From positions 1-32,137 of IMG/VR virus record IMGVR_UViG_3300032087_003428: a stretch of 32,137 nt of DNA; one strand, given 5' to 3'. The notes under the pieces were generated by a model, which was not told where the DNA came from, made no database searches, and saw only the letters and a list, made by a program, of their open reading frames with translations. Every line of letters begins with the position of its first letter. Positions within the stretch are counted from its first letter, which is position 1. The translations under genes were made by a program, and so were the position numbers. The DNA comes from a virus. Shown here piece by piece: positions 2,971 to 28,128 of the stretch.

Positions 2971-3032
2971 TTCTTCTTTTTCTTTTTAAATGCCAAGCCG
3001 CCTAGAAGCGCTTCCCAGAATGCTGCGTTCAT
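2967..3032 (-). CDS. Tiny 21-aa ORF, hydrophobic helix with lysine tail
   Basis: Reads MNAAFWEALLGGLAFKKKKKN. Its ATG overlaps the TGA of the nuclease fusion (ATGA) and GAGGA stands eight bases upstream inside that gene, so translational coupling is likely. The stop overlaps the stop of the convergent J-domain gene by four bases, so the ORF exactly fills the gap. The first 15 residues form a small hydrophobic or amphipathic helix and the last six are five lysines and an asparagine, a plausible membrane- or nucleic-acid-binding peptide. Function unknown; the strong ribosome site argues that it is translated. Confidence 0.45.
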   Translation of the reverse strand: MNAAFWEALLGGLAFKKKKKN

Positions 3033-6000
3033 TGATTAATCCTCGCGTATCCATTATTCTTGTCAATGGAAATCTCCATATCAACGATGTCCTTTAGAGA
3101 ATCCAAGTGAGAAATAAGAATAACTGTCTTGAAATACGTTTTAACTAGATCAAGCATCCGAATAAAGCCTTCCATATTCTCTGCGTCCAAAGCCGTTCCT
3201 GGCTCGTCTAAAATAAAGATGTTGCCCTTTGGTAGCGAGGACACAGATAGAAGCGCCAAACGTATGCCCATTGATGCTAGAGTCTTCTCTGCACCCGAGC
3301 CCATCTCAATAGGTCGGGCTTCGTAGTTGGGATGCTTGATAAGCACATCCAACTTATTACCAGACTCTTGGAAGAAAACTTCAAAGTCAACAATGTTTGA
3401 GATTGTCTTTGCAATCTCTTCGTTGATGACAGGCAGTCGTCTCTTGATAATATCATAAGCAATACCGTTGGAATGCATACAACGCATAAACAAATCATAA
3501 GCAGCATACTCGGCACGAATATCCAACAATTCTTGTTTCTTCTCTATCAGAGATTCTACCTTCTGCTCAAGAGAACCGATCGTTCTGTTGTGAGTTGATA
3601 GCTTTGCCTCAAAAGATTCTATATGCTTCTTGGTATCAGCAATCTTCTTTTCAACCTCATCGCGAGAAGAAATGAGGTTTTCTATATTCTGGATTGTTTC
3701 TTTGTTGTCTTCATACAAAGCAATCTTATCATTGGTCTCGTTAAGTTCGGTAGTTAGCGTCTTGATCTTCGCAAACAACTTTTCAATAGAAACTTTATTA
3801 TCGCGCTTTTCAATCTCAATACCGTTTTTCGCAACGATAGTTTCGTTGTAACTATCAATCAAAGCAACCATCTCCGCAGAATCTACGGACACGAACTTCT
3901 GCTTGTAGCCCTTTGCTTCTTCAATCTTTTTTATGATTGCCTTTTCAAGCATAGGCATATCAACAGAAGCGCTGTGCGCATCTGAGATAAATTTACAAGA
4001 TGTAACATACGCGTTTCCGCAAGGAACCTCGTCAAGAAGTGTGAGCTTCTTTGTCATTCCCTTGTAATCATTATCCATTATGCGAGCACGATTAACAGTT
4101 TCATCATAACGACGCTTAAAAATATCGTATTGCTTTTTCTCTTCCAACAAATCTTCAATATTGATGGTCGTCAAAAAATCGTCATAGCGGCTCAACATTT
4201 TGTCGAACTCTGTTATCTCTTCTTTTAATTCGCTGATGTTAGTTCTTGTATCCTCGATATTATTCGTTAGCTGCGTCCTTCTTTCAAGAAGCTTCTTGAT
4301 ATTTAAACGCTCTGTTGGAATAGAATCAATCTGCTCTGTTAAGCTCTTGTGGTCTTCCTCATGAGTTACAAGGCGTTTACGAAGCATAGAGCAAGTAGTG
4401 TTATCTATTTCAAGTTCCTTCTGTGCCTCTTCGCAATGAACCTCCGCAATTGCTATGTCTTTATCGTAGTCTACGTCACCGATACGTCGAAGAACGGCTT
4501 TTAGGTCAGAAGAGTCTTCTTTTGCCAGCTTAAACTTCTTCTCAAAGATCTCTAAATCCAAGAACTTAGCAAGGATCTCCTTACGTTTTGTAGACCCTTC
4601 CTTAATAAAGCTCAAAGAATCAAGCTGACTAGCCATAGACGTCAGCAAAAAGTCTTCAATCGTGCCAAACTGCTTGCGAATGTTGGCATCAGTTTCGTTA
4701 CGGGTTGTGCCGTTGAGACTCAAATCACCGTCCTGTGTGAAGTCCAAGAATGTTCTGGCCTCATTAGTTTCTACACCCTTGAGGCGCTTTACATACTTCT
4801 CTGACTTTCTCTCAATGGTATAAGTCTTCTCGCCAATCTGAAGCTCTATCGTACCAATACAGTTCTTTTTGTTTTGATTGATGATGTTATAGTTCTTGCG
4901 CTCGTTCTTTGACGTTGTATTGAACATAGTGTAAAGCATACCATCAATAACAGATGACTTACCTGAATAGTTCTTACCAAAGATTCCCACAATACCGTTA
5001 AGGTTTGTAAAGTCAAGGGTGTTGTCATCGCCATAGTTGAACAGATTGTCCCACTCAAAGCGATTAATATTCCAATTTACGTTTCTCGCAATGTCTTCGT
5101 TCTCTTCAATGTGAGAGTTATACTTGCGGTTTAGCTCGTAGATCTTCTGGATTGTGTCTTCTGTGGGCTCATAGTCCTCTAAATACTCGCGCATTAGACG
5201 TTCCTGAACCGCAACGTCTCGTAGATTCTCAACCTTAAAGTTCTTTCCAAGACTAATCTCGCCTCTTTCGCCTGCTGCTCTGTTCAGGAACGAGATTGAT
5301 TCAGGCTTGAAGCGAGACTTTGCAACCTCAACAGCCTTGCGCATTACGTCTAGAGGCAGGTTGTTGTTACTTACAAGACGCAGGCGCGCACCAGAAGGAA
5401 TATTTGTACCCTTTGGCATCCGACCCTTTGGTGTTAGTTCAATAGTGACGAAAGGCTTAGGGTTTAGGAGAACGTGATGTTTGACAGTAAAGTCATCTTT
5501 ACTACGAATTTCCCAAGTTAAGAATCCTTTATCATTGGTTTCGCCGTGGTTCTGTTGGACAGTGGAGCCGCAATAACGCACACGACCTTCTGTGTCAAGA
5601 ATTTGGTTTGTCTTGTGAATGTCTCCGAGCATTGCAAAGTCGTGACCAGCGAACACTCCAATGTCATGATCGCCGTGATCCATAACCCAACCAACGTCAG
5701 TGGATACTCCACCGATCGCACCGTGATACAAAGCAATGTTAATCCGAGATTGGTCACTTGGCGCAACCCAGTTGTCCTCGTCAAACACAGATAGCACATT
5801 GAGCGCGAGATCGGGCTCTAGAACGGTTTCACCCGCGTTCTTGAGTAGGTAAAGGTTTGGAAGATTCAAAGCGCTTACAATGGGCGACAGAGCGTCCTGG
5901 CGGCTGCTGTTCTTCAAGTTGCCGTCGTGGTTTCCGCAGATCACGTATGTCGGCGCGATCGCTTCAAGATTTCTGAAAAAATCTGAGCATAGTGCTACGA

Positions 6001-6169
6001 ACTCCGGAGAGATTTGGGTTTTTGTGTGGGCAATATCGCCGCAGTGAACAATGTAATCTACGTTTTCCTTACGAAGAATCTCGTAAAGCTGTTCGAATAC
6101 TTTCTTGTATTCATAATGATATTTTAAATTCTTTATATGCGTATCCGCAATGTGAGCAATCTTATACAC
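3029..6169 (-). CDS. Mre11-Rad50 (SbcD-SbcC, T4 gp47-gp46) fusion nuclease-ATPase
   Basis: One 1,046-residue polypeptide carries both halves of the recombination nuclease that T4 encodes as gp47 and gp46. Residues 1-240 are a metallophosphoesterase: D9-T-H11, G44-D45-IAH, G79-N80-H81-D82, H149 and GHDFAMLGDIH at 175-185. From about 385 comes the Rad50/SbcC ATPase: Walker A GIFGKNYSGKSS at 395-406, long coiled coils at about 540-910, ABC signature GSGAEK at 957-962, Walker B IFILDEP with D988-E989, and the H-loop histidine at about 1021. At the coil apex the usual CxxC zinc hook is replaced by C717-x7-C725. The complex resects double-strand ends for recombination-dependent replication and host DNA breakdown. 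The start is GTG, with AGGGGAT upstream. It follows a likely promoter/operator and is coupled to a 21-aa ORF. Confidence 0.92.
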   Translation of the reverse strand: MYKIAHIADTHIKNLKYHYEYKKVFEQLYEILRKENVDYIVHCGDIAHTKTQISPEFVALCSDFFRNLEAIAPTYVICGNHDGNLKNSSRQDALSPIVSALNLPNLYLLKNAGETVLEPDLALNVLSVFDEDNWVAPSDQSRINIALYHGAIGGVSTDVGWVMDHGDHDIGVFAGHDFAMLGDIHKTNQILDTEGRVRYCGSTVQQNHGETNDKGFLTWEIRSKDDFTVKHHVLLNPKPFVTIELTPKGRMPKGTNIPSGARLRLVSNNNLPLDVMRKAVEVAKSRFKPESISFLNRAAGERGEISLGKNFKVENLRDVAVQERLMREYLEDYEPTEDTIQKIYELNRKYNSHIEENEDIARNVNWNINRFEWDNLFNYGDDNTLDFTNLNGIVGIFGKNYSGKSSVIDGMLYTMFNTTSKNERKNYNIINQNKKNCIGTIELQIGEKTYTIERKSEKYVKRLKGVETNEARTFLDFTQDGDLSLNGTTRNETDANIRKQFGTIEDFLLTSMASQLDSLSFIKEGSTKRKEILAKFLDLEIFEKKFKLAKEDSSDLKAVLRRIGDVDYDKDIAIAEVHCEEAQKELEIDNTTCSMLRKRLVTHEEDHKSLTEQIDSIPTERLNIKKLLERRTQLTNNIEDTRTNISELKEEITEFDKMLSRYDDFLTTINIEDLLEEKKQYDIFKRRYDETVNRARIMDNDYKGMTKKLTLLDEVPCGNAYVTSCKFISDAHSASVDMPMLEKAIIKKIEEAKGYKQKFVSVDSAEMVALIDSYNETIVAKNGIEIEKRDNKVSIEKLFAKIKTLTTELNETNDKIALYEDNKETIQNIENLISSRDEVEKKIADTKKHIESFEAKLSTHNRTIGSLEQKVESLIEKKQELLDIRAEYAAYDLFMRCMHSNGIAYDIIKRRLPVINEEIAKTISNIVDFEVFFQESGNKLDVLIKHPNYEARPIEMGSGAEKTLASMGIRLALLSVSSLPKGNIFILDEPGTALDAENMEGFIRMLDLVKTYFKTVILISHLDSLKDIVDMEISIDKNNGYARINQ

Positions 6170-6188
6170 GTTATCCCCTAAAACAAAA

Positions 6189-6218
6189 CTCTATCACCAG
6201 TATACACCAGTGATAGAG
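6189..6218 (-). promoter_or_regulatory. 9-bp inverted repeat over the -10 region: operator candidate or terminator
   Basis: Perfect 9-base arms CTCTATCAC (6189-6197) and GTGATAGAG (6210-6218) are separated by 12 bases; arm centres lie 21 bp apart, two helical turns, so both face the same side. The arms bracket the -10 hexamer, an ideal place for a dimeric repressor. Read as RNA from the upstream gene, the same sequence is a 9-bp stem followed by UUUUGUUU, an acceptable intrinsic terminator for the 192-aa gene. Both roles could hold: stop read-through from upstream while controlling the new promoter. No repressor gene is visible in the window. Confidence 0.5.
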
Positions 6219-6226
6219 CCTGTCAA
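6199..6226 (-). promoter_or_regulatory. Sigma70-type promoter for the nuclease fusion
   Basis: Reading the minus strand, TTGACA (6226-6221) is followed after a 16-base spacer by TATACT (6204-6199), a perfect -35 and a five-of-six -10. Initiation would fall near 6192, giving a leader of about 22 bases that contains the AGGGGAT ribosome site (6179-6173) before the GTG at 6169. It lies in the only sizeable non-coding gap of this block, directly after the preceding gene's stop. This predicts early expression by host RNA polymerase, apart from the late virion genes. Confidence 0.6.
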
Positions 6227-6242
6227 GTGTTATTTTAGATTA

Positions 6243-6821
6243 TTATTCTACCGGATCATACATTCTATTGGAAAGGATATGACGAAGTGTAGCAACCATC
6301 GACGCGTCCAAATCTGTAGCAAGATCTTCCAACTCGGCGCGGGTCATATTACCCAGAGCTTCCCGGGCTCTGATAAGAGTAAGAAGACGTCCTTCCGGAG
6401 AGTCGAATGCTCGGTCAACAGTCTCCTCATCCTCTGGCTGAGGAATGTCTTCAATGCCGGCGCCGGGGCGAACAGCACCGCGCATGGCATCTTCTTCTGA
6501 TTCCTTAACAGCCTTCTTCAAAGAGCCGCGACTAACTTTAATGCTCTTACCGCGACCTGTGTCCTTCTCAAACTTAACAGCAACATCGGTGTTCTTTGTT
6601 CCTGGGTGGGTCACAACACCGTCGCCATACTCGTCGTGAGTTATCTTCTCACCAGACTTGAAACCTTCTTCAAGCTCTCCACGGTCTTTCATACTCAAAG
6701 CAATAGCGACAGCGCGATCGTGCTTTTCACCTTCCTTATCCATAAGATAAGAAATCTTTTTGCTTACCTTATCCTCGCCTTCGTTGACGAACTTTCTAAA
6801 GTTTTCCAATATGAGCTTCAT
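6243..6821 (-). CDS. 192-aa protein with prohead-type leader and Tudor/SH3-like segment
   Basis: Unknown overall. The start MKLILENFRKFVNEGED resembles short capsid-targeting leaders of T4-like internal head proteins, with a V12-N13-E14/G15 site similar to the L/I-x-E cleavage rule of the gp21 prohead protease. Residues 21-50 carry SYLMDKEGEKHDRAVAIALS, a motif I associate with small phage proteins of unknown role. Residues 56-103 (GEKITHDEYGDGVVTHP and a strand-rich continuation to RGSLKK) resemble the small barrel at the C-terminus of UvrD/PcrA helicases. Acidic residues dominate 105-140 and a helical domain closes the protein. GAGGA lies ten bases before the ATG, inside the end of the 25-aa ORF. 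A hairpin with a T-run follows the stop. Functional inference is weak. Confidence 0.6.
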   Translation of the reverse strand: MKLILENFRKFVNEGEDKVSKKISYLMDKEGEKHDRAVAIALSMKDRGELEEGFKSGEKITHDEYGDGVVTHPGTKNTDVAVKFEKDTGRGKSIKVSRGSLKKAVKESEEDAMRGAVRPGAGIEDIPQPEDEETVDRAFDSPEGRLLTLIRAREALGNMTRAELEDLATDLDASMVATLRHILSNRMYDPVE

Positions 6822-6832
6822 TTTTTAATCCT

Positions 6833-6910
6833 CTAGCAGCAGCTTTCTGTGCAGCAGCAGCCAACAACTAGTCGTCTTACTCTATCCCACAATTTTCTTA
6901 GTAGTCTCAT
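6833..6910 (-). CDS. Tiny 25-aa cysteine-rich basic peptide
   Basis: Encodes a basic amphipathic start (MRLLRKLWDRVRRLVV) and a tail GCCCTESCC, so five cysteines fall within the last eight residues. Its ATG overlaps the TGA of the 39-aa ORF (ATGA), and GGAGAG stands eight to thirteen bases upstream. Its own end contains the ribosome site of the next gene. The cluster could bind metal, be acylated, or form disulfides, while the arginines could bind membranes or nucleic acid. No family recognised. Coupling and the ribosome site support real translation. Confidence 0.45.
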   Translation of the reverse strand: MRLLRKLWDRVRRLVVGCCCTESCC

Positions 6911-7026
6911 TTTTTGCTCTCCATGTTTTCTAGCAAGTCTTCGCCCATATAGCGAATCTCGTAAACCATGACAGCTCTCAAATGCAACACTTTCTCAATC
7001 ATCTCTAATATACGGTCACGGGACAT
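6907..7026 (-). CDS. Small 39-aa helical protein
   Basis: A 39-residue ORF starting at ATG 7026, four bases after the stop of the primase gene. It reads as one continuous charged amphipathic helix (MSRDRILEMIEKVLHLRAVM then VYEIRYMGEDLLENMESKK). No good ribosome site is visible (TAAGATT only), so it may depend on coupling with the primase. It ends in an ATGA overlap with the 25-aa ORF. Function unknown; possibly a small regulator or simply a translated spacer. Confidence 0.4.
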   Translation of the reverse strand: MSRDRILEMIEKVLHLRAVMVYEIRYMGEDLLENMESKK

Positions 7027-7030
7027 AATC

Positions 7031-7966
7031 TTACACAGACATTGCTAATGTCAACAGTAAATAGTTGTCTGATGTGATAAGGGTCGCTTTGTTCAAACAT
7101 TTCTGGAAGTTGTCCTTTGACATTGACCCAACATCTTCGTTCTCACCAATATCAACTTTCCATACTTCAATATCAAAATCTAACAAAGTTTTGATGATCT
7201 CCAACTCTTTCTTCTTTGCGTCGGGATCCAAAGCGATGTAAACGCCTGCGTCTTCCTTAACAATCTTTTGTAGAAGAGAAGAGTTCTGATTTAGTGTGGA
7301 TCCAAGAAGAGGTACAGAATTACGACCGGCAACCACAGCATCAAACACCCCCTCCACCAAAATAATGTCCGAACTCCAATCCACAAACAAATCGTTGAAT
7401 ATAATATTCTTGCTTGCCGGCGGGTTCTTATACTTTGGATACGCCTTCTTGTCATAGGACCGAGAGATAAAGTAGTTCAAATCCCCTTCATCATCAAACG
7501 AAGGAATTACAACGCGCCCTTCGTACTCTCCACTGCTACAATAGCCCATTTTCCACCAAACAATATCTTGCTTGGAAATGCCGCGCTTTCGTAGATAGTT
7601 TCGCGCAGCAAATCCGGTCGGTGGAATATCTTTATTTGCCAAAGACACGAAACCTTCAGGCATCTCAAGTATTTGTTTTTCTTCTACTTTCTCGGCAAAT
7701 AAATCTTCAAGTCTGTTATAATCAACTGTCTCAGTGATGTCACGCCATTGTGACTTGTCGTGGTTAGATCCAAAGCGTCGAATAACACGATATATGTTCT
7801 TACCTCGTGTATCACAGACCCAGCACTTGTAGTAGCCTTTGTCTATGTTAACGGAGAACTTGCGTTTGTGGTGCTTGCAGTAAGGGCAGGTAAATAGAAA
7901 CTCGTCGTTGGAGCGATAAGATGCTCCAAGAACGTTTGTTAAAATCTTAAGTTTCTTTGCTTTCAC
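7031..7966 (-). CDS. DnaG-type DNA primase
   Basis: A 311-residue primase that would lay RNA primers for lagging-strand synthesis. The N-terminal zinc-binding domain has C27-P-Y-C30 and C48-W-V-C51. The core shows GYCSSGEYEGRVVIPSFD at about 141-158, the RNA-polymerase-like part of primases. The TOPRIM fold follows: IILVEGVFDA with catalytic E205, the metal-binding ALDPD with D247 and D249, and NEDVG at 277-281. It is similar in size to T4 gp61 and lacks any helicase-binding extension or helicase domain. The start is GTG 7966, with CAGGATTAATTC upstream, 20 bases inside the end of the resolvase gene. It is co-transcribed with the resolvase. No replicative helicase is present in the window. 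Confidence 0.88.
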   Translation of the reverse strand: MKAKKLKILTNVLGASYRSNDEFLFTCPYCKHHKRKFSVNIDKGYYKCWVCDTRGKNIYRVIRRFGSNHDKSQWRDITETVDYNRLEDLFAEKVEEKQILEMPEGFVSLANKDIPPTGFAARNYLRKRGISKQDIVWWKMGYCSSGEYEGRVVIPSFDDEGDLNYFISRSYDKKAYPKYKNPPASKNIIFNDLFVDWSSDIILVEGVFDAVVAGRNSVPLLGSTLNQNSSLLQKIVKEDAGVYIALDPDAKKKELEIIKTLLDFDIEVWKVDIGENEDVGSMSKDNFQKCLNKATLITSDNYLLLTLAMSV

Positions 7967-18680: not shown

Positions 18681-19660
18681 TAGCAAGGCTCCTCGTTATC
18701 AGAAGTATATAGGTTTCTTGAAAGCTGTGTTCTAGCAATTGTTCCCTTAAGGGTGCTTTCCTGAATGTTTAACCTTGTTATAACTTCTTCAGGCATCTCA
18801 GAATCAACAAGAATATTTGTAAAGAATTCAACTTTTTGATCATCTAAAACTTCGCCTAGATTCTGCGTTGTTAGGAATGTTTTCTGCGCATAAGTGCCAT
18901 CAGAGCCAGACAAGTATACCTCTATTTCAAAGTTTTCTTTTAAGTTGCTTGTATTTCTTTCAACGACATCCAAAACTAAATAATTTTCCTGTAAGTACAA
19001 AGCAACACCAGCAACATTATCTTGTGTTAGCCGAATGATTTTTTCTGCCTCTTCACCAGTAAAGTCATCTAACTCATCGTCTGATGAATAAAAAGATTTG
19101 TAGTCCACTGTAACATCAATCTGAGGAATGTTTCTAACAATTCCGTCTGCTAGTCCAGTGTTGCTGGCTGTAAGATTAACGGTCTGATAATACTGACTTG
19201 ATGATACCTCGCCTTCTAGAGCGTTAATGTGCCATGCTGGGGCGTACTGTGTCTTAAGGTCGCTGGTTCCAAGCGGGTCGGATCCTAAGAAAAACTTTTG
19301 TGCAAACTGCGGCGTATCTTGGAAAGCGTTTACAAACTCAACAGAATTTTCAGAAATAACATATTGGCCTGTGCTGTCTGTCTCTTGTAGCGAGCTTGAG
19401 ATTGCGTCCAAAAACTGATTAACTCTTGTCTCTGCCCCAGTGGTACTTTTTTGAACTTTAAGAGTTGGCGTATCAAAGCGAATTCTTCTATCAGCATCAT
19501 TCTGATCTTCAGAAAACCCAGCAGCTTCTGTGTTATATAAAACATCGTCGTCAAAGAAAGCATAAAAAGCTGGCTTCAGCCTACCAAGCTGCAGCTTTCT
19601 TTTTCCATACTCAGTTAATTTAAACTCTAGAACTTCTTCTTTTTTGTCGAAAAAACTCAT
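18680..19660 (-). CDS. Virion structural protein (326 aa), paralog of the 319-aa protein
   Basis: A 326-residue protein opening MSFFDKKEEVLEFKLTEYGK, then R-K-L-Q-L-G-R-L and FYAFFDDDVLY. This domain matches the start of the 319-aa protein at 10848-11807 in spacing and hydrophobic pattern. Middle residues are strand-rich and acidic; residues of about 220-280 (GVALYLQENYLVLDVVER and a following hydrophobic-charged alternation) look like a beta domain. The start ATG 19660 overlaps the giant gene's TGA (ATGA), and the stop overlaps the start of the 941-aa gene, so these three are translationally coupled and probably needed in fixed ratio in the same structure. Confidence 0.7.
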   Translation of the reverse strand: MSFFDKKEEVLEFKLTEYGKRKLQLGRLKPAFYAFFDDDVLYNTEAAGFSEDQNDADRRIRFDTPTLKVQKSTTGAETRVNQFLDAISSSLQETDSTGQYVISENSVEFVNAFQDTPQFAQKFFLGSDPLGTSDLKTQYAPAWHINALEGEVSSSQYYQTVNLTASNTGLADGIVRNIPQIDVTVDYKSFYSSDDELDDFTGEEAEKIIRLTQDNVAGVALYLQENYLVLDVVERNTSNLKENFEIEVYLSGSDGTYAQKTFLTTQNLGEVLDDQKVEFFTNILVDSEMPEEVITRLNIQESTLKGTIARTQLSRNLYTSDNEEPC

Positions 19661-22600
19661 TCTTCTATGTCACCCGAGATGTACCTGACTGTTTCATCAA
19701 TCTTAACTAGTTCTACAAGTGAGAAGTAATCATATGGCCAGTTATAGCTGTAGTTACCTATAGTTTCTGGGAACGCCGATGTATCTTCGGAGATAAGCGA
19801 TCTTCTGTATTTGTCGTAATTCTTGACTGCCTTCTTTTTGACCTTAAATACCATCCACTGAATTTCATCAGACTGATCAAAAATGTAATCTACTAATTCT
19901 CTCTCCTCAATCAAAACTTCTTTTTGCTCGAATTTCTCTCCAGCCTCTGGTGGCAAGTTTTGCCACATATCCGTAATATCTTGCTGCGTTACTGATTTGA
20001 AGAACTCAAAAACATACATTAAAATAGGCTCTACAGTTTTATTGGTTACAAAATCAAATTTCGGTGGGAAAACATATTTTTCCATATGCTGCTTTATTAC
20101 ATCATAATTTGAGCTTCTTTCGCTTATGCCGAAAAATTCTCTTCTATTTTTATTTGTTTTGTAAGGAATTGCTACAACTGCTTCTTCTAGTATGTTCGCT
20201 TCCTTTGGCTTACCAATTCTTATAGGAATACCCGCGTCGAAGCCAAGAACTTCTGCCAACTGATTGCTGCCAGCGGACTCGTCTTGTCTAATTCTCAAAA
20301 AGACACCCTCATTAGAAGAGGTTATCTGACTTCCATACTGGTGCCACATGCCGTTAATTTTAATATCTTGAGCATTAGTAAGGCCGGCTTCTACAGAGCT
20401 AGTTGCTGTCTGCGTATAAGAAGCATCAGCAAAGTTTAATATTGGAGTTTCAAACTTGGTCTGGAAGAACCAAGTTCTAAACTGCTCGTTCGTACCCTCG
20501 GGCACCTCCGTGAGGAAATCCGTAGTAATGACACTGTCACTCAACTTCATAAGATAATCTTCCCTCATCGTGTGAGGATAGGTAGTAGTGTCTTCTACAG
20601 TAATGTTCCCAGCAATCTCCTCAATTGTAGGTAGACCTGATCTTGGTGCTGTGAAAGTAATCTTGCTTGTTGTGTTGCCGTGATAGTAAGGCGGTACGAC
20701 GTGCCCGAAGGAAGCCGATTGCTCTGGGTTTGTAGAGGGGTCAAGTCCCTGCCCAAGAGGATATCCAAATGCCGATTCTCTTGCGTATAAGTCAAATGCC
20801 GCTCTGTCAACCTCCAAGTTGCTATCAAGTGTTCTAAAGACCTCAAGCGTCATTGAATATGAGGACCCGCTTCTTACAGATTGAAATTGATCTTCACGCT
20901 TTGATTTCAAATAAGCCAAACCATCCATAAAAAAGTTTGTTGTTTCACACAAGAAGTTATCAATAGCCAACTCATAAAGTTTCTTACCAGCGTTTATCTT
21001 TACGTAATCCGAACCCGTAACAGCCGGAGGGCCGGCGCGGCTGACAAGTTCATCATATTCACTAACGCCTGTATCGTAAAAGGCGCCGGAGCCAGTTAGT
21101 AGATTGGTATCCAAGTATGACAATGGTCTCTGTAGAGCTTCAAAAGGCAACTTTTTAAGTATGTATCCATTTTGGTTCGGGCCATCAACAAGATTTATCA
21201 TTTTTTTGTATTGAACGGTTCCTTCCGGCAAGTCAGTAGGCGCACATGAAGCCGTAGGGATACCCTCTGTTACCCTAACCGTCTCGGCGTCGGTCCCTTG
21301 GTTGGTGAGTATCATGTTACTAACTGCTAACCCAGACTTAATCGTGTTATACAAAATACCCGGAGCCATAAGAGGCTCCATAAATGCTCTATATGCCGCC
21401 CCTTGTCCTGTAAATGTGATATCACTACCTGTTGCATTAATTTCTATGTAATCGCCATAAGACTTAGATAACAACGTTGCTAATTCAAGTGTGCGCTCAA
21501 CAGGATAGAAGCCCTTGTAAGGTAGGAATTTAAGAAGGGCGTTACAACGTAAAGAGATCTTATCTCTCTTGATCTTAAGATCTCCCGATCTTTTATCATT
21601 AAGACCTTCATCTATAACGCTGAAGTACTTAATAAAGTCAGAGTTTGTATATGTCTTGAAGAAGTTCGCTTCAGAGCTATCGTAAATTGTGGCTCCTGTT
21701 AAGTTAAATATATTATCTACGTCTGCCAGGAAGTCATTTGCTTTATCTTGTGTATAAGTCTCTATTAACTCACTTATTCTAAATTCTGGAACAATTGAAT
21801 GATCTTTGCCAGCCAAAGCAATTCTCTCAGAATAAGATGTGTAACTTTGGTGTGGTACCTTGCCAGATTGTGAGCCGGCTTCCCACAAAGCGTCACCAGC
21901 AAATACTAGATCGCCGCCGGCACTTGATGAGCCTGCTGGCACTCTAGCAGCATACGTTGGCATTCCAGCAACACCCTTAAATCCATCGGGCTGGCGATAG
22001 AATCTAGAGCGCGAATTTAATAACTCTCCCTCACCTTCAGCGCTAGCCAATGATGAGGTGACAAAAGGCCCAATAGATTGCGTAGTTGCAAAGTTTATGT
22101 GCGGATCTAATGGCCAAATACTTGTTGGCGTACTATTGGTAGTACTATCAAAAACATACCCTTGAGAGTTTCGCAAACCACCATATTTTATTGATCTGTC
22201 AGCTCTGTTGTCATCCCAAATATTGGTGATAGTAAAATCTGTTCTTCTTCGGACAATATTCTTATATGCGTTAATTTCAGCTGGGTACACTCTTTCTTTG
22301 TAGTCAATAATCGTGCTCAGCTGACTTGAAGTAACATATTCGAAAACCTTGTTCAAGGAAGTGTTGGCTAAATTAGGAGCAGGAATATTTAGACGATTGT
22401 TTAAAGGCTCATTAGAGAAGAAATCCAATTCATTGCCAAACGTCACTTTTAAAGACACGTTGTTTAGAGTATCGGAGTTTTCTGTATTATCCTCCAAGAG
22501 CACGCTCGTTGGAGCATAGCGGCTACTAATTGGCTGTTCCGTATAATCGACAAAGTCATTTGACTTTAATCCTCTTACATATTGATACGTTGTTCCGTCA

Positions 22601-25600
22601 GTCAAAGTAACCGGAACTTGAGGTGGGGGCGTTATTAAACCAATCTGGTTTGTTTCGCGTAGTTTTCTAGCAACCTTTGTTTCGCCAGTTCTGATCTGCT
22701 TCCAAGTTGGATACCCCCATGGGCCATTTCTCATTGATGTTAGAACATTAAAGTAATCTTCGTCGTTGTCCAGGGCTGGAGATGCCCAATAGTCAGCATT
22801 AATATAAGAAGCAATTGCATCTGAAGATAATGGAAACCCTTCAGTGTGTGTAGAAGCTGTTAGAGCATCAAGTACCGCTGTATTTAAGTCTGCAAAGGTT
22901 GTATCTTCATAAGCGCCTGAGACTATAAGTTTGTTTAGTACACTAGCACTGTAATATGTTGGAGGCTGTAGTCCGAATATCGCCTCTCCTGACTTTAATG
23001 AAGCTGTTACCCAAGAGTATTGTTGTGTAGAGCGCGGGATTGCGTGCTGAACAAAGAGGTTATCGTATACCGACGCCGTAAAGTACCCAGCCGACGAAGA
23101 CTCAATTCTTCTTAAAGAGTTTCTGTTTGTCTTGTGCCAGGATGGCGTTGTAACATAAGTTAGTTCTGGCACGGACCCGAATACTGGATCATGACCAAAA
23201 GCTCCGGCATGTAATGTCGCTAATTGGTTTAGACCTCGTGGCTTGTTAATGTGGTCATTAACTCTGATCGACCCAGTTAGACTATTGTCTGTATTGGAGC
23301 CTGAAAGCCCTCTATTGATAATTCCCAGGTTTCTGTACGGAAGGGCGTTGTAGACAGACAATTCCTCGTGTGCCGGATCTCTATAGCCTCTTGACAGAAC
23401 CTCATAAGAGCCCGGAGACGAGAATAGGTTAACAAATACTGTTTTATTAGAATTGGCGCCTATTCTATCCGGTAATGCGTAATCCAAATCACCACCAGTG
23501 TTTTCTGTAGTATCTGTTGTTAGCGGGAAGCGTCCTCTTGTCGCGAGTGTTTCCGGGTTTGGTGCGAAACTAAATGACTGATCTTGGAAGAATGGGTCGT
23601 TAATAGAGCGACCAGATGTCTGAACAACTTGATAGTTCTTTTGGTAGTTGCCGATTTGGTTGTGAACAATCGTTCCCGAAAGACGCGTTCCAACCGAAGC
23701 AGTCGTCATCAAAATGTTCTTAATGTTTACAGGACGCTTTGCAGTTTCGTCGCGAAAGCGTTGTGCCGTAGGAAGCTCTGGAAGCCATCCATGCGGCGCT
23801 GAGCCTGCCGGCGAATCAAGGAACGGATAGTTTGGCGGAATAATACCAAGAGCACCAGAAGCGCCTACAGGGATGTTAGAACTTCCAGTATTAAGGCCCA
23901 GCGCTAATCGGAAACCTTCTGCGCGCGTATCTCTGCTATCTGAACCAGCATTTAACTCAGAGTGGCGATAATATCTACCACCAACAAACTTCTCTGTAAA
24001 TGGACTTTGCGCCGCAATATCAGTATCAATAACTAAATCATGATGAAGATTGGTGATTGTTACACCCGGCTTATAAGAACTAGAGATGATGGCGTTAAAA
24101 GTCGACTGCTCTGTTGTTTCATAGAGGCTGAACGGTGCCAACTTGTTGCCGTTCATTTTTAATTTGTTGTCATTATTTCTGTTGATGTCCGGGTTGAGGC
24201 CAAATCCTAATCTTTGTTTATAAGTTGGGAAAAATTCATCGTCTGTGTCTAACAGCCTTTCCACATCGGCATCAAACGACAGCATAATGTTAATTGGTAT
24301 GTTGGAAGACTCACTAACCGGTCCGTATGGCTGTGTTGCTTGGAATACGAAATTGACATCTTTATTTTGATGTTGCCCGACACCACCGAGGATTTTATTT
24401 CCACCAATTGAAAAACGATAGGGCCTAAATGCTTCGCGCACAGATATCTGATCAATTACGCTTAATATTGCGCCTCTTGAATTGTTTACATCGCTGTTCT
24501 CTGAGATGGTCGGATTGTCTCTCTCAGCCTTATTCTTCCACCAAAGATAATTCTTCTTTTGGTCCGCATCTTCAGGCGCGTGATCATACTTCCACTTTTT
24601 TACTAATTCTCTAGCTGATAAACCTACCGTTCTTCTTCTTGGAGCGTGAGCAGGATAAAAACCAGTTCCTTGCAAGTCATCATCAGGAGATGAAATGGCA
24701 TCTCCGTAGTCTACGTTTGAAGACGCTGTTGCTTCGAAAACCGACTTTTCGCTATCAATGAATGGGAAAACATTCCTGTACTTGCTTCTTTCTAAAGCGT
24801 GGCTTTCTACAACTGTTCGAACATTGTCGGCAAATTCTGCCGATGCTGGAACAAGTTGCCCCAACATGAACGATAATGACGAATCAAACCATTTATAGAA
24901 CTCATAGAAACGATCAAAATCAATCTCATCGTTTCCAACCTTCTCAAAGAACTTTTGTCTTACAAACTTAAGAGTCTTATATTCATCGCGGTATCTGTTG
25001 ACGCCGTCGCCAATTAGGTTATTAAAGTCTTTAAGACTTCCGAATGTATTAATCATCTCCTCGGAAATAACCTTGCTCATGCTTTTTTCAAAAGCAAAGA
25101 AGTAATTTATTGGTCGAGAATCGATCTTAAACTCTTTTTGATCTTGAGCACTTAGAACTTGTACTGTCTCTGATGGGGCGATTGTTTCAAGCTCGTTCAA
25201 TCTAGCGGCTACAATAAAATCTTTTTTGATAGGCGATGTAGAAGAAGCCTCAAACCCATAACCCTTTGCGGTGACTTGTTTATTTACAATATCACCAATC
25301 CAGCCAAATCTAGTTGAAGCAAGTGTAGCGGATCCAGAAGACTCATCTTCGACCGTAAATTCACCGGATGCATTAGAGCCTGTGTTCTGACTAAACTCCC
25401 AATTAAATGCTAAGGTGTCTAATTTAGAAACTTCACCATACAAAGCATTAGCTTCCCACGGGAATGCGTATAAGCTTGGTCGAAGAGCGCCGTGATTTTC
25501 GGTATCTAGAGCGTGCTCCTGTAAAGCCTTATCTTCAACATAATCTAGCCAGAAACGGCAAGAATTAATCTTAACATCAGATGTCTGTAGAACTGTTCCG

Positions 25601-28128
25601 GTAACATTTGTTCTATGGGCCCCCAAGAATACTCTTCTAGAGCCACTAATAAACGAGTCCGGTGGAGAATTGATAGTTTCCGAGACAGAGAAAGTATTGA
25701 CGATCTCGCCAGACCGAACCTCAACACCGCTAAATACAACAGTATAATTTCCTGAATCGGCACCATCAGCAAAGTAGGATAAAGGATACTTTTCTGGCTT
25801 AATTCTAACTGACAGGTTCCAAGTAGAATCTGTGTATAAATCCTCATAAAGTGAGGAGGTTAGTTCCGGAACGTACCCTCCAGCAGTCCCCGTAAGCATG
25901 AAGCGAGCGTTATCAGAATTTAATTCATCGCGGATTGACAGAACTTGGAAATTAACCGCATCTTGTGCGTCCCAAGTTGTATCAGTCTGGTCTGCAAGAG
26001 CGCTGTGAACACCAAAAATAGAAGAGCTAATAGCATTTGTAAAAAAGTATCCACCATCTTGAGATTCCAGAGGTTTTGTTGGGAAAGTCACATCTGCTTC
26101 AAGCGTAATAGCATAGCCGCCTGTAAGCTCAGTTGCTGCGGCTATAACACCAGTTGAGTCTGGATTTACAGATGAGGAAAAAGAATATACAACTGCGGAC
26201 TTATTAATATTATTATTGAAATTAATTAACTTATCATTAACAAGAATAGTTCTTCTGTTTTCTCGGAATTCATACTCAGTATTCTGAGCATACATATTCA
26301 GTTTGATTAACTCATCATCAATACCGAACGAACGAATAAGATTTCTAAAAGACTTTTCAGTACCCTTTGTTTTGTAAATGTAAGTTAAGTTATTGTAAAT
26401 GTTTTGGTAAATGATATTTTTTATATCATTCAAAGACTTATCATAGATCCTATCTTCACTTCTATCAGCGAGCTTCTCTAGGATGTCAGCATCCAAGAAA
26501 ATCTCTGGAGCCACAAAGCCGTGAGAGTTAAGCTTCTTATAAGAGAAAGGAAATGGTTTATCGCTTCCACTTACATATTCAATATTTTTTAGATTATTTA
26601 AATCCGAAGCTTGAATGTGTAGAGTATCAAAGTAGCTAGAAATAATTTGTGTTAGATACTTTGTTTGTTTCTGTCCCTCTGAATCTTGTTCTGTAATCCA
26701 AGCAGGAATTGAGTTGTATATAGAAGCATTGTTGCCAACATCATACGCTGAGCCTGAGTTTGCTAAGTTAGCTCTAAGCGTTATAACATCAGGATGGTTT
26801 GATCTGATAATTGGGTCTAAAAATTCTTTTGTTGCTGCGTTAGAAAGAACTATCGCTGACCCAGTATTTCTTGAATTTGTTCCGTACCCGGTCCACGCTC
26901 CGTTTGTAACACGACCAGCATAATCCAACACAACACTGTCTGTTGAAGATACGCCAGTAATTCCCTCATTAAACTTGTAGTAAACACCGAGCTTTGTATT
27001 AACGTCTTCTTGTGTATCTGTAAACGGCTCTGGGTCTGTGTTAGTACCACCACCAACTTGGCTGATAAAATATCTGCCCACATCTTTTGAACTTCTTTGG
27101 GTCTTCCAATATCTGAATTCGTCTAAAGAGCCAGACAATTTACCTGAGTAAGCAGGAGCAGATGTGCCGGCTGGACTGGTAATCGCAGCAGCTAAATTTG
27201 CTCGTAAAGCTCCGGTAACTTCGTTAATTCCAGATGAGCCTTGTGTAATTGTGCTTTTTAAGGAACCATCAACATAAAATTTTGTTTCAATGCCTGCGGA
27301 CGCTGATATAAGGCTAACAGCATAATGGTGCCAATTGCCATCAGCAACAGACGCTGTTGTAAAAGTAGAATCATTTGTTAATGTCTGTCGTGTAATACCA
27401 GTTGTACCAGACAGAGCAGTAATCAAAAATGGATTCTGCCCATCAGCGGCGCCGGTAAGCTCAATTGTTAAGCGACCATAGGTTGGAGTGTTGTATGTTT
27501 CTCCATTCCAGAGGTCAAAAATTATTTCTTTCTCTGTAAGAGATGTAAGGAACTCGTCTTTTTCTAGCCAGAACTCAACTGTTACACCATCATTTTGAAG
27601 ATCATATTTAAGATTACTTTCGCGGTTTGTACTTGTATCATAATAATTTGAGCCTGTGAAGTTAGTAGAGAAAGGACTCATGCCATTAGGGTTGGCATGC
27701 GGCCCTCCTTCAAAGTATACGTATTCTAAATCGCTTGATAACCCATAAGTCTCTGTTATAGATGAGGTTCCCCAACCGTCTGCTGAAAAGATGGCATAGC
27801 CATTTGTTCTAGGATATAGATTGTTTAAAATATATAAATCAATGTAAGTTGATTGATTTTCCCATTGTAGCTTCTCTCTTAAAGAGCCATCATAAGGATA
27901 AGTATCATAAATCCTATCTATTGATTGAATGTAATATTCTTCCGCTGAACCGTAACGAGCAAAATTAGCTGGATCAGAGAAGTCTACATTCGGTATAAAC
28001 CGCTTTTCGTGCTTTATGTCTTCTTTGTGGTATCCAACCGATTCGACTTCTCCACCAATATCCTTTGCGGACTTGTTAGAGAGAGAACTGACTTTTGTAG
28101 CTTTATCAAATAAGGTTTTGAAACTCAT
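19657..28128 (-). CDS. Giant 2,823-aa baseplate/tail protein with two LamG-like domains
   Basis: The largest gene here, 8.5 kb. Residues of about 175-355 form a LamG/pentraxin-type jellyroll: GVTVEFWLEK, later GNWHHYAVSLISASAG, TKFYVDGSLKSTI and GSLDEFRYWKTQRSSKDV. A second, more divergent copy lies at about 660-880, ending with KINSCRFWLDYVEDKALQEH. These folds usually bind glycans. The remaining 1,900 residues are Asn/Ser/Thr/Tyr-rich with no recognised motif. A run of charged helices near the C-terminus (about 2,670-2,823: KKKAVKNYDKYRRS and others) may anchor it. It lies 10 bases after the DNRLRE gene and overlaps the next by four. The gp6-adjacent position suggests it takes the place of T4 gp7/gp10-type wedge or fibre-anchoring proteins. 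Start ATG 28128; the ribosome site is weak. Confidence 0.8.
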   Translation of the reverse strand: MSFKTLFDKATKVSSLSNKSAKDIGGEVESVGYHKEDIKHEKRFIPNVDFSDPANFARYGSAEEYYIQSIDRIYDTYPYDGSLREKLQWENQSTYIDLYILNNLYPRTNGYAIFSADGWGTSSITETYGLSSDLEYVYFEGGPHANPNGMSPFSTNFTGSNYYDTSTNRESNLKYDLQNDGVTVEFWLEKDEFLTSLTEKEIIFDLWNGETYNTPTYGRLTIELTGAADGQNPFLITALSGTTGITRQTLTNDSTFTTASVADGNWHHYAVSLISASAGIETKFYVDGSLKSTITQGSSGINEVTGALRANLAAAITSPAGTSAPAYSGKLSGSLDEFRYWKTQRSSKDVGRYFISQVGGGTNTDPEPFTDTQEDVNTKLGVYYKFNEGITGVSSTDSVVLDYAGRVTNGAWTGYGTNSRNTGSAIVLSNAATKEFLDPIIRSNHPDVITLRANLANSGSAYDVGNNASIYNSIPAWITEQDSEGQKQTKYLTQIISSYFDTLHIQASDLNNLKNIEYVSGSDKPFPFSYKKLNSHGFVAPEIFLDADILEKLADRSEDRIYDKSLNDIKNIIYQNIYNNLTYIYKTKGTEKSFRNLIRSFGIDDELIKLNMYAQNTEYEFRENRRTILVNDKLINFNNNINKSAVVYSFSSSVNPDSTGVIAAATELTGGYAITLEADVTFPTKPLESQDGGYFFTNAISSSIFGVHSALADQTDTTWDAQDAVNFQVLSIRDELNSDNARFMLTGTAGGYVPELTSSLYEDLYTDSTWNLSVRIKPEKYPLSYFADGADSGNYTVVFSGVEVRSGEIVNTFSVSETINSPPDSFISGSRRVFLGAHRTNVTGTVLQTSDVKINSCRFWLDYVEDKALQEHALDTENHGALRPSLYAFPWEANALYGEVSKLDTLAFNWEFSQNTGSNASGEFTVEDESSGSATLASTRFGWIGDIVNKQVTAKGYGFEASSTSPIKKDFIVAARLNELETIAPSETVQVLSAQDQKEFKIDSRPINYFFAFEKSMSKVISEEMINTFGSLKDFNNLIGDGVNRYRDEYKTLKFVRQKFFEKVGNDEIDFDRFYEFYKWFDSSLSFMLGQLVPASAEFADNVRTVVESHALERSKYRNVFPFIDSEKSVFEATASSNVDYGDAISSPDDDLQGTGFYPAHAPRRRTVGLSARELVKKWKYDHAPEDADQKKNYLWWKNKAERDNPTISENSDVNNSRGAILSVIDQISVREAFRPYRFSIGGNKILGGVGQHQNKDVNFVFQATQPYGPVSESSNIPINIMLSFDADVERLLDTDDEFFPTYKQRLGFGLNPDINRNNDNKLKMNGNKLAPFSLYETTEQSTFNAIISSSYKPGVTITNLHHDLVIDTDIAAQSPFTEKFVGGRYYRHSELNAGSDSRDTRAEGFRLALGLNTGSSNIPVGASGALGIIPPNYPFLDSPAGSAPHGWLPELPTAQRFRDETAKRPVNIKNILMTTASVGTRLSGTIVHNQIGNYQKNYQVVQTSGRSINDPFFQDQSFSFAPNPETLATRGRFPLTTDTTENTGGDLDYALPDRIGANSNKTVFVNLFSSPGSYEVLSRGYRDPAHEELSVYNALPYRNLGIINRGLSGSNTDNSLTGSIRVNDHINKPRGLNQLATLHAGAFGHDPVFGSVPELTYVTTPSWHKTNRNSLRRIESSSAGYFTASVYDNLFVQHAIPRSTQQYSWVTASLKSGEAIFGLQPPTYYSASVLNKLIVSGAYEDTTFADLNTAVLDALTASTHTEGFPLSSDAIASYINADYWASPALDNDEDYFNVLTSMRNGPWGYPTWKQIRTGETKVARKLRETNQIGLITPPPQVPVTLTDGTTYQYVRGLKSNDFVDYTEQPISSRYAPTSVLLEDNTENSDTLNNVSLKVTFGNELDFFSNEPLNNRLNIPAPNLANTSLNKVFEYVTSSQLSTIIDYKERVYPAEINAYKNIVRRRTDFTITNIWDDNRADRSIKYGGLRNSQGYVFDSTTNSTPTSIWPLDPHINFATTQSIGPFVTSSLASAEGEGELLNSRSRFYRQPDGFKGVAGMPTYAARVPAGSSSAGGDLVFAGDALWEAGSQSGKVPHQSYTSYSERIALAGKDHSIVPEFRISELIETYTQDKANDFLADVDNIFNLTGATIYDSSEANFFKTYTNSDFIKYFSVIDEGLNDKRSGDLKIKRDKISLRCNALLKFLPYKGFYPVERTLELATLLSKSYGDYIEINATGSDITFTGQGAAYRAFMEPLMAPGILYNTIKSGLAVSNMILTNQGTDAETVRVTEGIPTASCAPTDLPEGTVQYKKMINLVDGPNQNGYILKKLPFEALQRPLSYLDTNLLTGSGAFYDTGVSEYDELVSRAGPPAVTGSDYVKINAGKKLYELAIDNFLCETTNFFMDGLAYLKSKREDQFQSVRSGSSYSMTLEVFRTLDSNLEVDRAAFDLYARESAFGYPLGQGLDPSTNPEQSASFGHVVPPYYHGNTTSKITFTAPRSGLPTIEEIAGNITVEDTTTYPHTMREDYLMKLSDSVITTDFLTEVPEGTNEQFRTWFFQTKFETPILNFADASYTQTATSSVEAGLTNAQDIKINGMWHQYGSQITSSNEGVFLRIRQDESAGSNQLAEVLGFDAGIPIRIGKPKEANILEEAVVAIPYKTNKNRREFFGISERSSNYDVIKQHMEKYVFPPKFDFVTNKTVEPILMYVFEFFKSVTQQDITDMWQNLPPEAGEKFEQKEVLIEERELVDYIFDQSDEIQWMVFKVKKKAVKNYDKYRRSLISEDTSAFPETIGNYSYNWPYDYFSLVELVKIDETVRYISGDIEE

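Follow-up and report, generated by a model that had tools for sequence, protein, structure and literature searches.

Gene context of the cassette

The window analysed here is the whole 32,137-nucleotide stretch of the IMG/VR virus record IMGVR_UViG_3300032087_003428. On its minus strand, a gene coding for a fused Mre11-Rad50 (SbcD-SbcC) nuclease is preceded by a compact cassette of promoter-like and hairpin sequences (Table 1). The 1046-aa protein consists of an N-terminal phosphoesterase domain followed by an SbcC/SMC-like body, which agrees with the fusion named in an earlier sequence-only reading of this DNA, and fused Mre11-Rad50 proteins are already known (PMC3175470). The same reading placed the cassette in the only sizeable gap of the replication block. 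The 73-bp intergenic gap (6170-6242) is real, and the statement is roughly right since the longer ORF-poor stretch further upstream, which it passed over, holds two short ORFs. The nuclease gene faces a convergent, solitary gene on the plus strand (2215-2970), which has a weak DnaJ-domain match. The window also encodes a gp25-type baseplate protein and, downstream of the baseplate genes, a 2823-aa protein (19657-28128 on the minus strand) with no Pfam or PHROG match. An S77 prohead protease is found in six of eight relatives, and among named phages neither a DNA match nor a close relative was found.

The gene just upstream of the cassette belongs to an array inserted between the primase and nuclease genes. 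In the phages that carry the promoter described below, with or without the stem (states S and P), 0.4-2.6 kb of small, fast-changing ORFs separate the two genes. Most array ORFs start with the tag MKIxxxRLKEIIKEE or MKLIMENFKKFINE and continue with unrelated sequence; such tagged ORFs are present in the window (6243-6821, minus strand) and in L013 (3263-4927), L015 (523-2742), L019 (2629-4932) and L022 (564-1559). The two tags are found again next to the T4-type (S77) prohead protease of relatives, in genes of L261 (513-1007 and 2037-2432) and L263 (2038-2472). The internal proteins of T4 carry a capsid-targeting sequence (PMC5694885), which the array tags resemble, and the array may possibly code for head-packaged proteins. 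Residues 88-106 of the 192-aa cargo protein encoded next to the cassette give a marginal match to the Pfam BRCA2 repeat (20.5 bits against a cut-off of 20.3), which, as one hit among 37 proteins scanned, is probably due to chance.

Table 1. Features of the cassette and of the neighbouring genes in the window
Feature	Position	Strand	Basis or remark
Fused Mre11-Rad50 (SbcD-SbcC) nuclease, 1046 aa, GTG start	3029-6169	-	Gene predicted to be driven by the promoter
AGGGGAT	6179-6173	-	
Ribosome-binding site AGGGG	6175-6179	-	Predicted from sequence
U-tract TTTTGTTTT, last part of the putative intrinsic terminator	6180-6188	-	T-rich tail tracks the stem in relatives
Predicted transcription start	near 6192, within the stem 3' arm	-	Predicted from the -10 box
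9-bp inverted-repeat arm GTGATAGAG	6197-6189	-	
Putative terminator stem, 3' arm ACTGGTGATAGAG	6189-6201	-	Folding and covariation
-10 box TATACT	6204-6199	-	Invariant in 10 of 10 distinct stems
Tetraloop GUAU	6202-6205	-	Folding
Putative terminator stem, 5' arm, 13 bp, CTCTATCACTGGT	6206-6218	-	Folding and covariation
9-bp inverted-repeat arm CTCTATCAC	6218-6210	-	
-35 box TTGACA	6226-6221	-	Read from the sequence; TTGAC kept among relatives
Cargo gene upstream of the cassette, 192 aa, N-terminal MKLILENFRKFVNE tag	6243-6821	-	Transcript predicted to be terminated
Remainder of the inserted primase-nuclease array, two short ORFs	6822-7030	-	
Primase	7031-7966	-	Adjoins the nuclease gene in most relatives without an array

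Structure of the element

Read from the -35 box, the cassette consists of TTGACA, GG, CTCTATCACTGGT-GTAT-ACTGGTGATAGAG (6218-6189), TTTTGTTTT, AGGGGATAAC and the GTG start codon of the nuclease gene (6169); 5' of TTGACA lie the stop of the 192-aa ORF (6243) and a short AT-rich run ending in AATAACAC. The elements named in the sequence-only reading are present in full, namely TTGACA and TATACT with a spacer of 16 (6226-6199), the perfectly matching arms around the -10 box, with 12 nt between them and centres 21 bp apart, and the leader AGGGGAT before GTG. The hairpin exceeds the 9-bp repeat reported there, with 13 pairs, internal G.U pairs and a GUAU tetraloop, and the -10 box TATACT overlaps three loop bases (TAT) and the first three bases of the 3' arm (ACT). 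In the window, the fold of the sense-strand RNA has a free energy of -24.9 kcal/mol (z -4.05) and that of the opposite strand -13.5 kcal/mol (z -2.51). No Rfam family was matched in the window.

Taken alone, the 9-bp repeat is not above chance: four perfect 9-bp inverted repeats with loops of 3-20 are present in the window, as against 3-7 in five sequences simulated with a first-order Markov model. Likewise, sites matching the sigma70 consensus at 11 of 12 positions occur four times in 20 kb, and promoter-like sites of all kinds are not enriched in the window (45, compared with 49.5 in shuffles). The combination of a promoter with an interleaved hairpin and U-run is found once in the window, once in each of two relatives and never in 1.78 Mb of simulated sequence, or once in 0.74 Mb under looser criteria; this joint signature of promoter and terminator, and its conservation among relatives, exceed chance.

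Distribution among relatives

A first search for the nuclease located it at 80 IMG/VR loci; with two additional scans, 212 loci were usable, and their 5' flanks comprised 104 distinct sequences. These flanks fall into three states: state S, with promoter, stem and U-tract (13 flanks); state P, with the same promoter and neither stem nor U-tract (13 flanks, and one more in which the promoter is displaced); and state N, comprising the remaining flanks, which have none of the three. A search of IMG/VR with a degenerate cassette pattern returned 12 matching stretches, all 12 in front of the nuclease gene. States S and P together make up a single clade of the protein tree (support 100/100), within which state S requires 3-4 changes.

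The promoter follows the array in part. Array-bearing relatives within the clade of the window have it, and in array-less relatives the primase gene mostly abuts sbcCD and the promoter is absent; among the state N flanks whose upstream stretches were examined, the primase directly adjoins the nuclease in many. The correspondence is broken by L217 and L241, which are array-bearing, lie outside the clade and have no such promoter at the nuclease gene, and by L208 and L232, which are nearly array-less, yet carry a plain promoter. In L012, a GIY-YIG/NUMOD3 homing-endonuclease-like gene (4315-4998) is situated between the nuclease gene and the conserved promoter, which lies about 790 bp upstream. 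The promoters of stem-less relatives, L013 and L016 for example, have in common a conserved ATACTAGTAT palindrome that overlaps the -10 box and the predicted start.

Conservation of the promoter and of the stem

Of the flanks, 26 distinct ones retain the TTGAC and TATACT boxes with the spacing TTGACN-16-TATACT (the spacer is 18 in two), and the boxes outlast the stem, which is lost in 13 of the 26. Across ten distinct versions of the stem, whose letters drift, TTGAC-17-TATACT is fixed. This pattern of conservation supports a role of the two boxes as a promoter, as the sequence-only reading proposed, and the promoter presumably uses the host sigma70.

The hairpin was assessed in a gapless alignment of ten distinct stem sequences, in which 99.2% of the cells over the 13 pairs are paired. 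Four pairs have changed on both sides, in 9 cells (e.g. C-G to U-A and A-U to G-C), the sequences sharing ancestry and the counted changes not all being independent events; a further seven of the 13 pairs are invariant and uninformative on covariation. Neither the pairing nor the covariation score of the real alignment was matched in any of 500 shuffles, and at most 54% of cells were paired in slid-partner controls. In most versions, U.G and G.U occupy two inner positions of the stem; these can pair in the sense RNA but neither in the complementary strand nor, at the DNA level, as a palindrome, so that the sense fold is more stable than the antisense fold in all ten versions.

A T-rich tail is present in 13 of 13 stem-bearing flanks and in none of the 13 stem-less ones (Fisher p 1.9e-7, with related flanks counted as independent). 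Scored as hairpin plus tail with a formula after d'Aubenton-Carafa, all tested versions are positive except L205, which scores negative and whose weak hairpin has, in the fold, two unpaired positions on each side. The covarying stem, and a U-tract present or absent together with it, thus support the suggestion made at first sight that the repeat could act as an intrinsic terminator for the upstream gene. In the stem-less half of the promoter clade no good replacement terminator was found within 150 nt, which suggests that termination is dispensable there. Relatives that keep the stem by compensation and lose the -35 and -10 boxes were not seen, whereas the opposite loss, of the stem with the promoter kept, was.

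Proposed function and alternative readings

We hypothesize that the cassette is a host-type sigma70 promoter nested in an intrinsic terminator, at which the array transcript would end and a new transcript, for the nuclease gene, would begin; we hold this to be probable from the comparative sequence evidence. RNA polymerase that comes in from the upstream array would transcribe both arms, and the 13-bp hairpin together with the U-run would release the array RNA near 6180-6188. On the same DNA, the -35 box would be offered just 5' of the hairpin and the -10 box across its loop. A new transcript would then start in the 3' arm, at about 6192, and carry a ribosome-binding site of its own into the nuclease gene; as it begins in the 3' arm and lacks the 5' arm, the new RNA could not form the hairpin. 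Both the initiation and the termination at the cassette are predictions of this kind, and their net effect would be to insulate the variable gene array from the core recombination gene. Natural variation points to two separate selection pressures on one short stretch, one for a promoter that is retained where the stem is lost and one for a terminator whose stem is retained although its letters change. A true relay, in which the polymerase stays after releasing the array RNA and is re-used at the nested -10 box, seems rather unlikely; if it occurred, nuclease expression would be coupled to array traffic and not insulated from it.

The sequence-only reading had gone further and taken the palindrome for the operator of a repressor, in which a dimeric regulator bound to CTCTATCAC/GTGATAGAG across the -10 box would shut off the nuclease gene. 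Perfect arms, two DNA turns apart and flanking the -10 box, would suit such a protein, and the outer CTCT/AGAG pairs are invariant in all ten versions, beyond what a terminator needs. However, the arms drift by compensatory change at four positions, the inner part of the stem pairs in the sense RNA alone, and in L087 a one-sided T.G change breaks the DNA symmetry and keeps the RNA pair. The U-tract is found only alongside the stem, and in half of the clade the promoter persists where the palindrome is gone. No regulator candidate was identified, the pattern is confined in IMG/VR to the front of the nuclease gene, and a search for further operator copies found the palindrome only once in the 148-kb and 88-kb genomes of relatives. 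We consider the operator improbable and, with it, the proposed switch.

It is more improbable still that the element is a terminator only, with an incidental -35/-10 match and a nuclease gene read by leakage from upstream. Most versions do have good terminator features, and the window holds no excess of promoter-like matches; but the two boxes do not change while the stem does, and 13 flanks retain them without stem and U-tract. We give equally little credence to the idea that the cassette owes its conservation chiefly to a role as a homology patch, at which phages exchange the array and the nuclease allele, its effects on transcription being secondary. The 3-4 changes of the stem on the tree fit such a recombination point, as do L010 and L176, in which a cassette identical to that of the window precedes a mosaic nuclease; its first 200 residues are window-like and its body is closer to the stem-less phages, which suggests recombination at the cassette. 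Shuffling of this kind is reportedly credited to promoter-early stem-loop (PeSL) cassettes (as cited in PMC4503421). Against it, compensatory change favours selection on the stem itself, and a single copy per genome leaves no room for within-genome shuffling. Also rejected were a hairpin promoter like those of the N4 virion polymerase, since the sigma70 boxes stay without the hairpin and the 2823-aa protein of the window matches no family, and a leader attenuator, since the predicted start falls within the 3' arm. A palindrome of such size is unlikely to be cut directly by the encoded nuclease.

Relation to known systems

The element is of an ordinary, known kind, with unusually clear evolutionary evidence. 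Its closest counterparts are the PeSLs, promoter-terminator composites of T4-like phages (PMC4503421 and PMC3950731, citing Arbiol 2010 and Comeau 2014). As described there, PeSLs share with it a strong sigma70-type promoter, a stem-loop terminator, a short gap and a position beside variable (hyperplastic) genes, here the array. The window phage is, moreover, contractile-tailed and has relatives with a T4-type protease. By analogy, the element appears to work like PeSL cassettes. It differs in that its promoter is nested within the hairpin, whereas most composites found in coliphage RB49 are tandem, terminator then promoter. In addition, the window cassette is single-copy, whereas PeSLs are described as dense in shuffling regions. 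Several similar recombining copies per genome were not found in the 148-kb and 88-kb relatives and, the palindrome being single-copy, the element is not filed as a strict PeSL.

A literature search on promoters nested in terminators found nothing direct. An interleaved promoter-terminator is, however, present after gene 39 of RB49 (3201-3152), besides several tandem terminator-promoter pairs, and at the same place in the GEC-3S record the annotated promoter (3175-3202) overlaps the annotated terminator (3164-3191). The element of these Krischvirus phages resembles the cassette in its TTGACA-16-TATAAT boxes, in AAGGGAGATTCTC/GGGAGTCTCCCTT around the -10 box and in a U-run followed by a ribosome-binding site and a gene. 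Its sequence and genes are unrelated, and transcription of a topoisomerase gene is stopped there and that of a small unknown gene started.

RNA polymerase can remain on DNA after intrinsic termination and reinitiate at a nearby promoter (PMC6978380, PMC11347151). This was shown in vitro with a separate terminator and promoter; the zero-distance layout of the window cassette would suit such re-use. Polymerase recycling could be tested on the cassette, in which terminator and promoter are naturally at zero distance, and the RB49 equivalent makes such a test easy. The cassette also marks the border of the variable gene array in these large environmental phages, which form a widespread group. In the 148-kb relative, two tandem hairpin-then-promoter composites (contig G001, 138171 and 141146, minus strand) are dissimilar in sequence to the window cassette.
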